From Bacteroidota bacterium (GTDB lineage Bacteria > Bacteroidota > Bacteroidia > CAILMK01 > JACPUW01), in assembly GCA_016192035.1 (NCBI GenBank), contig JACPUW010000038.1, positions 1 to 64,000 on the forward strand: a stretch of 64,000 nt of DNA, given 5' to 3'. Positions 11,292 to 19,020 of this stretch are shown piece by piece. A model generated the notes under the pieces. It searched no databases and was not told the origin of the DNA. It was given only the letters and a program-made list of their open reading frames with translations. Position numbers and translations under genes: made by a program. Within the stretch, counting starts at the first letter, position 1. Every line of letters begins with the position of its first letter.

Positions 11292-14200
11292 TTATTCTTC
11301 TTTTTTGTCTCCGTTTTTTACCAAGTCTTCTGCCAACATTTTCGCTTGGGTGATTACCGTGTCAACCGCTTTTTCTTGAAGGTCTGGCGGATACCCGTGT
11401 AGTCTTAAAATTCGTCTGATGTTTCGTCTTAATGCCGATTGTACACTTTCTTTAATTGTCCAATCTATTGTCGTGCTGTTGCGGACGGTTTTTAAAAGTT
11501 CTTGGGCAATATGTTTCAGAATGTCGTCACCCAATACGGCTACTGCACTGTTGTTTACTTCCAAAGCGGTGTAAAAGGCATATTCTCTGTAATCCAATCC
11601 CAATTTATCGCCACGTTGGTCGGCTTCTTTCATTTGCTCGGCAAAAGGGATTAGTACTTTCTCCAAAAACTCTACTGTGTCAATCATTCCGTTGTGATAG
11701 CGTTTGATGGCATCTTCCAACATTTCGGAAAATTTCTTGCTCTCCACTAAGTTGATTTTTGTCCGCTTCTTGATTTCGTCTTTGAGAAGTTTTTTCAATA
11801 ACTCAACGGCTAAATTCTTTTGTGGCAAGTCTTTCAGTTCTTGCAAAAAGCGTTCGTCAAGAATTTCAATGTTGGGCTTTTTCAGACCTGCGGCATCAAA
11901 AATGTCAATTACATTGTCGGCAGTGATGGCTTCTGAAATGATTTGCTTGATGGCGGTTTCCATTTCTTCGTCCGTTTTGCCACCTTCGTTTCGGTCGGAT
12001 ATTTTTTGCAATCGAGCTTTTATGGACTGAAATAAAGCCACATCATCACGTATTGCCATTGCCCGCTCGTGGGGAACGGATATCGCAAAGGCTTTCAACA
12101 GGTTTTTGGTGTTTTCAGTAAAACTCTGCTCTCCGTTTTCCTGACTGAAAATGTAATCGACAATGACAGGAATAAATCTTAGTTTTTCTTCGGGTGTAAG
12201 TGTGAAGAATTTACGCCAATCAAAATGCCTTAACTGGTAGTCTATTGCTTCGTGCAATTCTAACATTTTGGCTACTGCCAATTCCTGGTCGAGTGTGGGT
12301 TTACCTTCTCCACCGCTGGCGGTGTAGTCGGCTAAAGCGGTTTTGAGTTCTTGTGCAATGCCTAAATAATCCACTATTAGACCGCCTGATTTACCTTCTG
12401 TAAAAACTCGGTTTACTCTTGCAATGGCTTGCATCAGGTTGTGTCCTCTCATGGGTTTGTCCACATAGAGCGTATGCAAACAAGGTGCATCAAATCCTGT
12501 GAGCCACATATCCCGAACAATGACCAATTTCAAAGGGTCGTTCGGGTTTTTCAAGCGGTCGCCAATGGCTTTTCTTCTGGGTTTGTTGCGAATGTGGGCT
12601 TGCATATTCAAGGCATCACTGCTGCTGCCTGTCATTATCACTTTTATAGTGCCTTTGTCATCATCTTCCGAATGCCACAACGGACGGATTTTGATAATGG
12701 CTTCATAGAGTTCTACACAAATTCTGCGGCTCATACACACAATCATGGCTTTGCCGTCTAACACAGCATTGCGTTGCTCAAAGTGATAGACCAAATCTTG
12801 TGCGATTTTCTCAATGCGGTTGGGGTTGCCCACAATGGCTTCCAACCGTGTCCATTTTGCCCGCATTTGTTGGCGGTTGCTCAGTTCTTCGCCTTCAGTG
12901 AGTTCTTCAAATTGCTCGTCAAGGCTTACTTTTTCATCATCTTCAAAATGGACTTTTGCCAAACGGCTTTCATAGAAAATCGGAACGGTGGCTTTATCGT
13001 TTACGGCTTGTTGAATGTCGTAAATGTCCACATAGTTACCGAAAACTGCTTGGGTGTTTTTGTCGGTGGTTTCAATGGGCGTACCTGTGAAACCAATAAA
13101 CGTGGCATGAGGCAAAGCATCACGCAAATGTTTGGCAAAGCCATCAATAAAATCGTATTGGCTTCGGTGGGCTTCATCCGCTATGACTACAATGTTTTTT
13201 CGTTCGCTTAGTGCTTGAATGTCTGCACCGATATATTCTACACTTGGCTCGCTTACAATATTTGGAAATTCAGGTTGCACAATGTCGGTGGGCATTGGCA
13301 TAAACTTCTGAATGGTGGTAAACACAATACCGCCTGATGCCACTTTGAGCAATTGGCGTAATTCCCTGCGGCTTTCTGCCTTTTGTGGTTCTTGCCTTAA
13401 TAGTTGCTGGCAATTGGTAAAGGTTTCGTGCAATTGCTCGTCTAAATCGTTTCTATCGGTCAAGATGACCAAGGTGGGATTTTCCATTCTCGGCTCAATG
13501 ATGAGCTTGCCCGAAAAGAAAACCATACTCAAACTTTTGCCGCTTCCTTGTGTGTGCCAAATCACACCGCCTCTGCGGTCTCCAACATTCCCCTCCTTTG
13601 GAGGGGTGCCAGAAAGGCGGGGTGGTTTTTCCTCGTTACTAAAAGCCGGGTGGTTCTTTAGCATTTCCAATAACTGATCCATGTGTTTCATCACATCTTC
13701 TACAGGTATATGAATTGTCGTAAGTCCTAAAGATTCTAAATAAGCGTCTCGCTCCGCATCATATTCTTGCTTATCATCATGGCTACTACCATCAATCTCG
13801 ATAACTACATTGCAATTGGAGCAGTAGAAATCTACTATGTAATTGCCAATGATTTTTTGTCGGTCAAAGTCATATCCTTTGAATTGTTTGTTCTTTACCT
13901 GGTTCCAAAACAATACCTCTGATAGATTTCCTGCTTGCCTTAGCTCACGAGCTCTTTCTTTGAGGTTAGGGTTGTAGGGGAGCTCGAAATAGTTTTTGCT
14001 GGCTCTTTTTACCACCCCGGTCTGCGACCACCCCTCCAAAGGAGGGGAAAAACCACCCCCTGCCCCATCCAAAGGAGGGGAATTATTGCCAGCGGCACGA
14101 ACCGTGCTTTCTACCGCTTTGTTTACAGCATAATATTGATGATAGGCAGCTACTTTTTTGAGTGTTTTGCTGTCGCTTTTTTCAAAAACAATAAATTGAT

Positions 14201-14945
14201 GAATAAGGTCTAAAAGCGTGGTTTTATTAAGCATTCCCAAAAACATAACCTCCATTTGCGGTTGCAAATGGTCGGCTGTGGTTTGTCCGTCTTTGGTTTT
14301 CCAAGTCATAAACCTGCCGTAATCGCTGGTAATGGTGCCACAACGGGCATCCCAACCATCACTGATAACGAGTAAACTGTTGTAAGTGAAAAGCGAAGGA
14401 ATGGCTTGTTTGTAGGTTTGCAGTTGGTTGAATGCCGATTTCAAGTTGGCGTTTTCGTCCACTGCATTTTTGAGTTCTATCACTACCAAAGGCAAGCCGT
14501 TTACAAACAGGATAATATCGGGTCGTTTGTTTTGGTTGCCTTCTACTACTGTAAACTGGTTGATGGCTAAAAACTCGTTGTTCTCTGGGTTTTGAAAATC
14601 AACGATATAAATTTTCTCGCCACGAATGCCGCTTTCGGTTCTCATTTCTACATCTACGCCATCCGTCAGGTAGCGGTGAAATGTTTCGTTGTTGATTAAG
14701 GCATTGGGGCTTTCGGTACGCAATACTTTTTTCAGGGCATCTTCTTTGGCATCTTGCGAAAGCGTAGGATTGAGTTTGTCAATGGCATCACGCAAACGAG
14801 AAACCAACACCACTTCGTTGTATTGCCTTTCGGGGTGCTCACCATCAGGGGAAATGACTGTTCCCAACTGATAGGCATAGCCCAAACCTTGCAGATAGCT
14901 AAGGGCAATTTCTTCTATTTCGTTTTCGGTGATGCTGTTTCTCAT
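11292..14945 (-). CDS. hsdR: Type I restriction enzyme R subunit, with in-frame inserted nuclease element
   Basis: 1217 aa, about 166 longer than expected; removing residues 288-453 gives 1051, normal for HsdR. The N-terminal nuclease shows [19 protein letters not shown] (PD-(D/E)xK) and QLQTYK. The translocase follows with WHTQGSGKS (Walker A, Lys470), [16 protein letters not shown] and [15 protein letters not shown] (motif VI). The C-terminal half is the helical HsdM/S-binding region. The inserted segment, between Asn287 and Val454, lies only 12 residues before the Walker A signature. The start codon overlaps the hsdS stop by 4 nt. HsdR cuts unmethylated DNA after ATP-driven translocation by the HsdM2S2 complex. 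The native motifs are intact, so activity is plausible if the insert is tolerated between domains. Confidence 0.95.
13587..14084 (-). mobile_element. 498-bp in-frame element with terminal inverted repeats and a DUF559 nuclease domain, inside hsdR
   Basis: On the coding strand both ends read inward as ATTCCCCTCCTTTGGA and, about 25 nt on, GGGGTGGTTTTTCC, giving imperfect inverted repeats of about 40-45 bp. Near-palindromes of the form CCCCTCC-nnn-GGAGGGG lie at 13590-13606 and 14031-14047, with a variant at 14063-14080. AAT flanks both sides and may be a target duplication. The segment is exactly 166 codons without a stop, so hsdR stays open. Its centre encodes a DUF559/Vsr-like endonuclease domain with [17 protein letters not shown] and [13 protein letters not shown], so the Asp, Glu-x-Asp-Gly and His positions of that fold are present. 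A GTG before [10 protein letters not shown] could allow separate translation. The centre is AT-rich (18 of 60 G+C in one sampled line) between GC-rich ends. No intein motifs are seen. Confidence 0.8.
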
Positions 14946-16081
14946 ACTGCTTCTAATTGTCCGCTCATTAACTTAGGTAGAAGTGTGTCACGGGTTTGGG
15001 TTAGTGAATGGATATTTTGACTGTTTATGTCTATTCTCTCGTAAATTGTTTTAGCATATTCATTAAACGAATTTAAGGTTTCATCATCAGGCAAAAGGAT
15101 AGGTGTTTGCCGCAAAGTTTCTAATGTCAAATATTGTTGAGTTGAGCCTGCCAATCTTTTTGTGAAATATTCTGATGTTTCTTTAGAGTCAATCGTGAAA
15201 TATAAAAAATATGCTAAATCAGGTCTCTCAGAAGCTTTGAACAATCCAATATTCTTAATAGCAAAGTCAATTTCATTTTCGTGAACAAAATAGAGATTCC
15301 CAACTGTACCAATCATTGTAATTAAAATGTCCAATCTATCAACCTTACTTCTTTTGTTTACTTTATTGAAATCATCATCTGAGATTTTATATGCGCTTGA
15401 AAAATCAATGAAATGATTTTTAAGATGTTTTGAAGTAATTAAGTATTTACCTTCTTGTTGTTGTTTTGGCGAATCGTGAGTACCATCTTTTACTGAAATT
15501 AGACTTGACAATTCAACAATTCTCCATCCCTTCGGAAGTCCATCCACCAACTCGCCATCAAAGCCGGGGAAGTTGAAATTGACAAACCACTCTTTGAAAA
15601 TGGCTTGAGCCATTGCTTCCAAAGTTTGGTTCATTTGCAGGTTGAGTTCTATTTTGTCGTCAAGCGAAGTAAGGATTTGGGCGATTTGGCGTTGGGTGGG
15701 AAGGTCGGGGGCTTTTACTTCTATCGGATGAATATAGTTCCTGTTCAGACTTGGAACAGCACTACCTGAATTATGCCCGCCAAAATTCATTGTTTGAAGC
15801 AAGTAGTAGATAAATTTGGGGTCGCAGTTTTTGAACTCTTTGATATATAAGGTGGTGTTGTGTGCCCAAAAATCTGTATCAAAGAAATATGCATTGCCAA
15901 TATTCCCACTTCTCCCAATTGTAATACTTGGGGCTTTGGTTGTAAATTCATTATGGTAGCCAATGACACCATTTGAACCCGCAACAGGATAAATTCCTTC
16001 TTGCATTTGTGTTCGTGTCAAATCGTGTCCCCTTTGAAAAGTGACTAACTCCCCCAACTTATATGTTTTCCATTCGCTCAT
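14942..16081 (-). CDS. hsdS: Type I restriction-modification specificity subunit
   Basis: 379 aa. Two target-recognition domains: residues about 1-150 start [15 protein letters not shown] and contain [13 protein letters not shown]. The second begins at [14 protein letters not shown] near residue 185. Each is followed by a conserved coiled-coil spacer, [20 protein letters not shown] in the middle and a shorter helical end. HsdS chooses the bipartite DNA target of the HsdM and HsdR complexes. It is slightly short but has both halves. The second domain is very AT-rich: 17 of 60 G+C in the sampled line 15241-15300. The gene overlaps the PIN gene upstream and hsdR downstream by 4 nt each, so the three are translationally coupled. 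Confidence 0.95.
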
Positions 16082-17487: not shown

Positions 17488-19020
17488 TTAAATGGTGAAA
17501 CCAATTTTTTTCAAATTTACTTTTACCGCTTCATCCAACTCATTCGCTTTCTGCATTTGCTCTGAAAGGGTAGAAGTGAGCATTTGCATTTTTTCGTCAA
17601 ATGCTTGTCCGTCTTCTTCTACTTCCTTAAAGTCAATATATCGTCCTGGGGTGAGGATGTAATTGTTCTTGCGGATGTCCTGAATGTTGGCAGACTTGCA
17701 AAAACCTGCAATGTCTTTGTATTCGGCAAATTGCTCTTTGCTTCGCCACTTGTGATAAATGTCGACAATGTTGGCAATGTCGTTGTCTGTTAGTTCACGC
17801 TGTTTGCGGCTTATCATTGTGCCAAATTCCCGTGCATCAATAAAAAGTACTTCACTGGTGCGGTTTCTGAATTTGGTGGTTTCGGTTTTGTTGCGAGCCA
17901 AAAACCACAAACAAGCGGGAATTTGAGTGTTGTAAAACAACTGTGAAGGCAAAGAAACCATACAGTCCACCAAGTCGGCTTCAATCATTGCTTTTCTGAT
18001 TTCGCCTTCGGTGGCAATTTCAGAACTCATACTTCCATTTGCCAATACAATTCCTGCCGTTCCGTAAGGGGCAAGTTTGCTCACAAACAACTGTAACCAA
18101 GCATAGTTGGCGTTTCCTGTTGGCGGTACGCCAAATTTCCATTTGTGGGTTTCGGCTTTGTTGATGTTGTAATCGCTCACATTGAAAGGCGGATTGGCTA
18201 TGACATAATCCACTTTCAATTCAGGGAATTTGTCGTTCATCAATGTATCGCCCAATTCAATTTTGGCATCAATCCCACGGATAGCCAAATTCATTTTTGC
18301 CAATTTGTAAGTGGTCGGGTTGCTCTCTTGTCCGAAAATGGAAATTTTACCTTTTCGGTGTTCGTGCATTTCAATAAAGCGTTCGCTTTGAACGAACATT
18401 CCACCGCTACCGCAACAGCCGTCATACACTCGTTTTTCAGGTTCGGGGGCAAGCATATCCACCAAGATTTTCACAATGCTTTGCGGTGTATAAAACTGTC
18501 CGCCTTTTTTGCCTTCGGCATCTGCAAACTGTCCCAAGAAATATTCAAACACAAAGCCCAAAACGTCTTTGCCTTTTCCGTTTCCGCCTTTGCTCAAAGT
18601 GATTGAGCCAATCAGGTCAATAAGTTCTCCAAGTCTTTGCTTGTCGAGTGCAGGTCGGGCATAGTCTTTTGGCAAAACGCCTTTCAAAGAAGCATTGTCA
18701 CGCTCAATGCTGTCCATTGCTTCGTCAATGTCTTTTCCGATTGTCGGCAGTTTGGCTCTGCCTTGCAGCCATTTCCAACGTGCTTGCGGTGGTACATAAA
18801 AAACTCTTTCGGCTGTGTATTCGTCTTTGTCTTCTGGGTCGGCTCCCGTTTCGTGTTTTGTTGCTTCTAATTTTTGATATAATTCGTCAAAAGCATCTGA
18901 AATATATTTTAAGAATATCAAACCCAAAACAACGTGTTTGTATTCAGCCGCATCCATATTGTTGCGAAGTTTGTCGGCTGCTTGCCAAAGGGTTTTTTCT
19001 AATTCTATATTCTCGCTCAT
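17488..19020 (-). CDS. hsdM: Type I restriction-modification DNA methyltransferase subunit
   Basis: 510 aa, typical for HsdM. Residues about 1-130 are the N-terminal helical domain (LWQAADKLRNNMDAAEYKH, then LGLIFLKYISDAF). The methyltransferase core carries motif I in VYDGCCGSGGMFVQS and the N6-adenine catalytic motif IV in VIANPPFNVSDY. It methylates adenines at the HsdS-chosen site and protects host DNA from HsdR. It is the first gene of the five-gene operon, with a TAnnTTTG element 32 nt before its start. Local G+C is low, 24 of 60 in the line 18961-19020, against neighbours near 50%. This fits horizontal acquisition of the island. Confidence 0.96.
   Translation of the reverse strand: MSENIELEKTLWQAADKLRNNMDAAEYKHVVLGLIFLKYISDAFDELYQKLEATKHETGADPEDKDEYTAERVFYVPPQARWKWLQGRAKLPTIGKDIDEAMDSIERDNASLKGVLPKDYARPALDKQRLGELIDLIGSITLSKGGNGKGKDVLGFVFEYFLGQFADAEGKKGGQFYTPQSIVKILVDMLAPEPEKRVYDGCCGSGGMFVQSERFIEMHEHRKGKISIFGQESNPTTYKLAKMNLAIRGIDAKIELGDTLMNDKFPELKVDYVIANPPFNVSDYNINKAETHKWKFGVPPTGNANYAWLQLFVSKLAPYGTAGIVLANGSMSSEIATEGEIRKAMIEADLVDCMVSLPSQLFYNTQIPACLWFLARNKTETTKFRNRTSEVLFIDAREFGTMISRKQRELTDNDIANIVDIYHKWRSKEQFAEYKDIAGFCKSANIQDIRKNNYILTPGRYIDFKEVEEDGQAFDEKMQMLTSTLSEQMQKANELDEAVKVNLKKIGFTI

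Follow-up and report, generated by a model that had tools for sequence, protein, structure and literature searches.

The hsdR gene and its insertion

The window, the whole stretch of 64,000 nucleotides that was analysed, carries a type I restriction-modification operon, the features of which are collected in Table 1. The product of hsdR has the Pfam domain order HSDR_N, DUF559 (E=1.6e-28), SWI2/SNF2 and HsdR C-terminal domain, and the gene is also assigned to type I HsdR by NCBIfam and PADLOC, with hsdS and hsdM adjoining. The DUF559 insert is not native to this HsdR subfamily, being absent from the HsdRs of its own genus and family. The spacing between STV and GD is 18 nt in one HsdR from the same genus (L267) and one from the same family (L268), and 516 nt in the window, so that the insertion is exact and in frame, with a difference of precisely 498 nt or 166 codons and no stop codon.

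The HsdR motifs that flank the insert are intact on both sides, and the junction allows at most a 3-bp ambiguity (AAT) as a possible target-site duplication; no firm consensus of the target emerged. A sequence-only reading of the window had already given the coordinates, frame and length of the insert correctly, and had rightly placed its end 16 codons before the Walker A lysine.

Table 1. Positions of the hsdR operon and of the parts of the inserted element in the window
Feature	Position	Strand	Basis or remark
hsdR, type I restriction subunit bearing the insert, 1217 aa	11292..14945	(-)	one continuous frame
Inserted element, 498 bp = 166 codons, in frame, stop-free	13587..14084	(-)	length difference relative to empty HsdRs
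HsdR N-terminal part, native PD-(D/E)xK nuclease domain	14085..14945	(-)	
HsdR motor and C-terminal part	11292..13586	(-)	
DUF559/Vsr-like nuclease domain, HsdR aa 328-429	13659..13964	(-)	Pfam; invariant E, W, Q, DF, E-x-DG-x-x-H, D
Outer REP-like unit, element 5' side (hsdR sense), ATTCCCCTCCTTTGGATGGGGCAGGGGGTGGTTT	14050..14083	(-)	pairs with 13587-13606
Inner, second REP-like unit, 5' side, TTCCCCTCCTTTGGAGGGGTGGTCGCAGACCGGGGTGGT	14011..14049	(-)	inverted-repeat arm; ~42-nt tandem units in related loci
Inverted REP-like unit, 3' side, GGAAAAACCACCCCGCC...CACCCCTCCAAAGGAGGGGAAT	13587..13632	(-)	
hsdS, hsdR operon	14942..16081	(-)	
hsdM, hsdR operon	17488..19020	(-)	

The nuclease domain

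The insert encodes a strongly conserved nuclease, and its earlier description as an apparently intact DUF559/Vsr-like domain holds, with the catalytic residues present and a DUF559 (PF04480) score of 104.7 bits against a gathering cut-off of 20.6. The signature residues listed in Table 1 do not vary in any of the 106 in-gene or 21 free copies, and dN/dS is 0–0.15 where it is measurable.

The model of the nuclease domain has a pLDDT of 91 and, in Foldseek searches, matches the Neisseria structure 3hrl (4.7e-7), the catalytic domain of I-Bth0305I (2.6e-3, TMt 0.72) and Vsr (1cw0, 4.8e-2), which places the insert nuclease within the Vsr-like catalytic fold of EDxHD homing endonucleases; phmmer also finds 3hrl (E=5e-14). 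In an AlphaFold model of a 517-residue fusion, the overall confidence of which is low (58) and of which only the contrast between domain and linkers is used, the nuclease is well folded whilst the linkers coded by the repeats are disordered, or of low confidence, to either side of it.

The inverted-repeat ends

The ends of the element are formed by inverted repeats, as had been noticed from the letters of the window, in pairs of 39 nt (82% identical), 20 nt (95%) and 14 nt (100%). Terminal inverted repeats of this kind are present in insertion sequences and MITEs. Matches resembling CCCCTCCTTTGGAGGGG occur five times in the window against 0.2 expected, all of them at the ends of the element, and the whole element is predicted, as RNA, to fold back on itself into a long stem closed at the point of insertion (z=-5.06).

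In the window's lineage the repeat unit is about 42 nt long (AATTCCCCTCC-TTT-GGAGGGG-TGGCTGAAAGCCGGGGTGGTA) and is arranged as one to three tandem units at the left and one inverted unit at the right. The length of the ~42-nt unit is divisible by three and five of its six frames are open. The left unit is read mostly as NSPPLEGW... in HsdR copies and as FPSFGGVAES... in copies within type ISP and Mod genes; the host phases thus differ for this unit, and the nuclease is still in frame. Imperfect inverted repeats flanking the nuclease score above shuffled sequence in most in-gene and most free-standing copies.

Nuclease-free REP-like insertions, also in frame (TTPAPPKEGN and similar), are found in the type ISP genes L225 and L235, and also in L230 and L231. 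They lie about 30–40 codons before the DUF559 element, are absent in L115, L227 and L245, and are MITE-like relatives of the element.

Distribution across genomes and host genes

Scans for DUF559 in 60 relatives and in 395 genomes of the phylum showed that open frames of great length hold many of the copies; in the class-wide scan, 62 of the 150 strongest matches (~40%, Bacteroidota) lie within open frames of 500 aa or more. Over 60 in-frame copies were found in at least 16 host gene/site classes, counts that leave out L084, in which DUF559 is at the C-terminus of a long protein, and long open frames with weak E-values (~1030–1050 aa). The proposal that the insert is a selfish element spreading through genes without killing them is supported by these copies, the biochemistry of such spread being treated below as a conditional scheme. 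In the in-gene copies that were read, the nuclease is in the frame of the host and free of stops.

The hosts include restriction-modification (R-M) genes, namely HsdR (two sites), HsdM, type ISP, Eco57I-like IIG and type III and other methylases, and genes of DNA metabolism, namely RecG, RecJ and two UvrD-like helicases. Further hosts are methionine synthase (MetH, two sites), leucyl-tRNA synthetase (LeuRS, two sites), methylmalonyl-CoA mutase/IcmF, SpoIIE-type phosphatases and CoA-transferase. Alignments of host proteins to solved structures resume past the insert for LeuRS (1h3n), MetH (9ssp), RecG (1gm5) and HsdR (4be7).

The lineage of the window (lineage A) occupies more than 20 HsdR loci, 11 type ISP loci and two loci of Mod-like methylases, besides free-standing copies, all with the same repeats, and its recognised in-gene hosts are all R-M genes. 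The suggestion that it matters for the host to be a DNA-cutting enzyme is borne out only in part: this lineage is mainly in R-M genes, but sister lineages are found in metabolic and translation genes. The element recurs at the same site in different genomes, and the HsdR linker is occupied in other hosts by an unrelated element lineage, B (38–42% identical). Phages and plasmids carry only distant DUF559 relatives with less than 60% identity, and no element was confirmed on viral contigs.

Mobility relative to host genes

The element has moved relative to its host genes, and the evidence for this comes from other genomes, not from the window's own. There, no second copy of the element was found and the only other match to the repeats (C21:27104) is an ordinary intrinsic terminator hairpin. 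The expectation of further repeats in the same genome thus failed, whilst in related genomes this nuclease is indeed flanked by these repeats.

On the tree of HsdR host genes, a single clade of hosts bearing lineage A is rejected (AU test, p=2.9e-74) and the presence of the element changes state 7 times, compared with 14.2 times for shuffled labels. An insert of equal length in all distant HsdR orthologues, which would speak against a selfish element, was not found: many orthologues are empty and are interleaved with filled ones. The HsdR of the window groups with two empty genes and L208 and L213 group with the empty L177, with most other filled genes placed elsewhere. The clade argument rests on this longer host-gene tree rather than on the tree of DUF559 itself, on which the test of HsdR-borne copies as one clade is not significant (p=0.24), DUF559 being short and many forks unresolved. 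Labels of host site cluster on the DUF559 tree (27 changes against 57 when shuffled), yet they switch, a pattern that would be given by site-preferring, homing-like spread with occasional occupation of new sites.

A comparison at short range is provided by MetH site 1, for which the tree of one genus contains 9 filled and 30 empty alleles. The filled allele L102 adjoins the empty alleles L145 and L146 at ~91% nucleotide identity, and the identities of element and host are uncorrelated (r=-0.03, over 36 non-independent pairs). The filled alleles L102 and L259 are without some eight linker codons (QAGDKQGN) that are present in the empty alleles L145–L154, as if insertion had replaced part of the linker. 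Divergence is not raised in the sequence flanking the insertion, hence no long co-conversion tract is visible around filled sites.

Between the window and L119 the elements are 83% identical and the hosts 59%, a difference that may owe something to stronger constraint instead of recent transfer since synonymous sites are saturated, as they mostly are elsewhere, and that is not taken as sole proof of transfer. For some long-lived copies, in MetH and LeuRS, divergence is similar to that of the hosts, a pattern that is also compatible with vertical inheritance and frequent loss.

Fate of the insert in the host protein

In 13 genomes with a filled leuS, single-contig genomes included, the query matches that gene alone, so that either the filled gene is functional or the insert is taken out. 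Among the Pfam matches there is no Hint (intein) domain, and the insert has no HN|C/S/T junction; nor does the insert have an Rfam match at E<=1, which covers group I and II intron cores and riboswitches. The simplest reading of these sequence features is that the insert would be translated and remain part of the protein, forming an additional domain on tethers.

Proposed mechanism

The observations are probably best explained by a nuclease-driven, homing-like selfish element that would be kept in the host protein as a tolerated loop. The proposed family, belonging to Bacteroidota, would have REP-like palindromic ends that enclose one DUF559/Vsr-like (EDxHD-type) nuclease and would lack any machinery for splicing. 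It would enter conserved genes at loops or at linkers between domains, in the frame of the host, most frames of its end repeats being readable. Translation would then yield one polypeptide of host protein and nuclease, in which the compact nuclease is carried on flexible, repeat-encoded tethers, and because of this arrangement the host protein would still work. The nuclease is envisaged to cut or nick alleles that have no insert and, on occasion, new sites, after which repair off the filled allele would copy the element in (homing).

There is an even chance, in our estimate, that these elements form a distinct class of mobile element, one that homes with a nuclease alone, is REP-ended and tolerates translation, and that has neither splicing nor a known transposase. 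Such a class would invade conserved genes of one phylum and persist in the mature protein, leaving hidden endonucleases in leucyl-tRNA synthetase, methionine synthase, RecG and HsdR, with repeats adapted to translation through their open frames and a length divisible by three.

Alternative explanations

The repeats could instead owe their movement to a different enzyme acting in trans, such as a Y1 transposase of the RAYT type, with the nuclease as cargo or stabiliser. This is unlikely, although it retains more support than the other alternatives: the ends are REP-like in structure, nuclease-free REP insertions lie in frame in some ISP genes, and palindromic repeats without a nuclease enter open reading frames in other phyla (PMC3733652). 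Against it, no match to a Y1 transposase (PF01797) was found in the window's genome, the one genome searched, the active-site residues are invariant across all in-gene copies, and one nuclease family accompanies the repeats across many genomes.

Recruitment of DUF559 as a useful domain, adding a further nuclease or mismatch-nicking activity to R-M and DNA-metabolism enzymes and kept for the benefit of the host, is somewhat less probable still. The restriction of the window's lineage to R-M genes amongst its recognised in-gene hosts, the many other hosts in DNA metabolism and the strong purifying selection on the nuclease would all be expected of such a fusion, and for a Caulobacter DUF559 protein a function as repair endonuclease has been predicted (PMC12907096). 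However, sister lineages reside in leucyl-tRNA synthetase, methionine synthase, methylmalonyl-CoA mutase and CoA-transferase, where a nuclease would serve no sensible function; the presence of the domain also differs among close species, and it is bounded by REP-like inverted repeats.

Removal of the insert, either from the protein by an atypical intein or through skipping at the level of RNA or translation with the paired ends joining the flanks, is improbable. The long stem closing at the insertion point and the interruption of vital single-copy genes are in its favour, but neither a Hint domain, nor a terminal His-Asn before Cys/Ser/Thr, nor an Rfam match was found, and the in-gene copies that were read are in frame and free of stops, with dN/dS far below 1, as expected if they are translated in line. 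Equally improbable is an old set of insertions that is now only lost and no longer mobile, which agrees with the often similar identities of element and host within a site and with the clustering of labels by host site, but not with the scattered HsdR hosts of lineage A, the absence of element–host correlation within one genus or the occurrence of one lineage with the same repeats in three types of gene.

Relation to known elements

The nuclease-driven, homing-like element favoured here seems to represent an undescribed way of being a genetic parasite, and in the titles and abstracts of the open-access literature that names DUF559 there is no apparent description of such elements. Conservatively, it belongs among homing elements as a variant form. 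A DUF559 gene has already been placed under the EDxHD homing endonucleases (PMC9403480). I-Bth0305I, the best fold match of the nuclease outside DUF559, is a homing endonuclease of phage origin whose DNA-binding region is long (PMC3943268), whereas neither an intron nor a comparable additional region was found in the element.

Among published ideas the closest is that of the ShiLan insertion, an in-frame-compatible insert in phage methylases that hides an out-of-frame HNH nuclease (PMC11855218, 2025). It resembles the present element as a stop-free, in-frame insert at a conserved methylase site that is patchily distributed, codes for an endonuclease and shows no detectable splicing, and differs in that its nuclease is of the HNH type, in another reading frame, and in that its hosts are non-essential methylases of phages (PMC11855218). 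The element described here has instead a DUF559/Vsr nuclease in the frame of the host and REP-like ends, and is found in bacteria in many genes including leuS.

Inteins are likewise translated in frame at conserved sites, are patchily distributed and often carry a homing endonuclease; in contrast, the element is without a splicing domain or splice-junction residues and its insert seems to be retained in the protein. With REP/RAYT systems and MITEs it shares GC-rich palindromic repeat ends and the existence of REP-only derivatives, but its nuclease is PD-(D/E)xK-like rather than a Y1 transposase and its insertions are in genes and in frame. Rickettsia palindromic elements (RPEs) are short and are not known to code for a nuclease. 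According to one account (PMC3733652), they are palindromic repeats that lie in frame within functional protein genes. The same is true of the repeats of the element, which occur in another phylum and whose sequences probably differ.

Implications

By the textbook view, a homing nuclease in an important gene must splice itself out, as in inteins and introns. A third answer is suggested here, in which the protein keeps the nuclease as a loop that it tolerates, a strategy that would be used across Bacteroidota in the gene/site classes counted above, and possibly beyond this phylum. It is a likely explanation for many of the essential proteins annotated in databases as DUF559-containing, and the element is a candidate mobiliser for palindromic repeats. 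The filled genes are also natural catalogues of insertion-tolerant sites, for instance in RecG, MetH, LeuRS and HsdR, and whether a homing element can live without splicing is directly testable in culturable Flavobacteriia.

Additional copies and fusions

Relatives of the element occur in metagenome-assembled genomes labelled as Desulfobulbaceae (L235/L236), Endomicrobia (L242), Cloacimonadales (L246), Neomarinimicrobiota (L255) and Lysobacterales (L205/L206), which reflects either wider spread or binning errors. In L085 (genome G007) the LeuRS frame stops about 20 codons past the element; this may reflect damage to, or a frameshift in, a copy borne by leuS, or else an assembly error.

Terminal fusions are also found, at the N-terminus of HemF and the C-terminus of PurL, and with HemD; those of HemF and PurL require no homing. 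In the case of HemF (coproporphyrinogen oxidase), DUF559 and the repeat are fused in frame to the N-terminus in L128, L129, L130 and L132, loci from several genomes of one family of the phylum, so that this terminal fusion is a conserved one. Finally, a single genome (G220) holds four DUF559 copies (L099, L110, L139 and L140) with strong end repeats that are mutually nearest among those compared (56–65% amino acid identity), a sign of proliferation within the genome.
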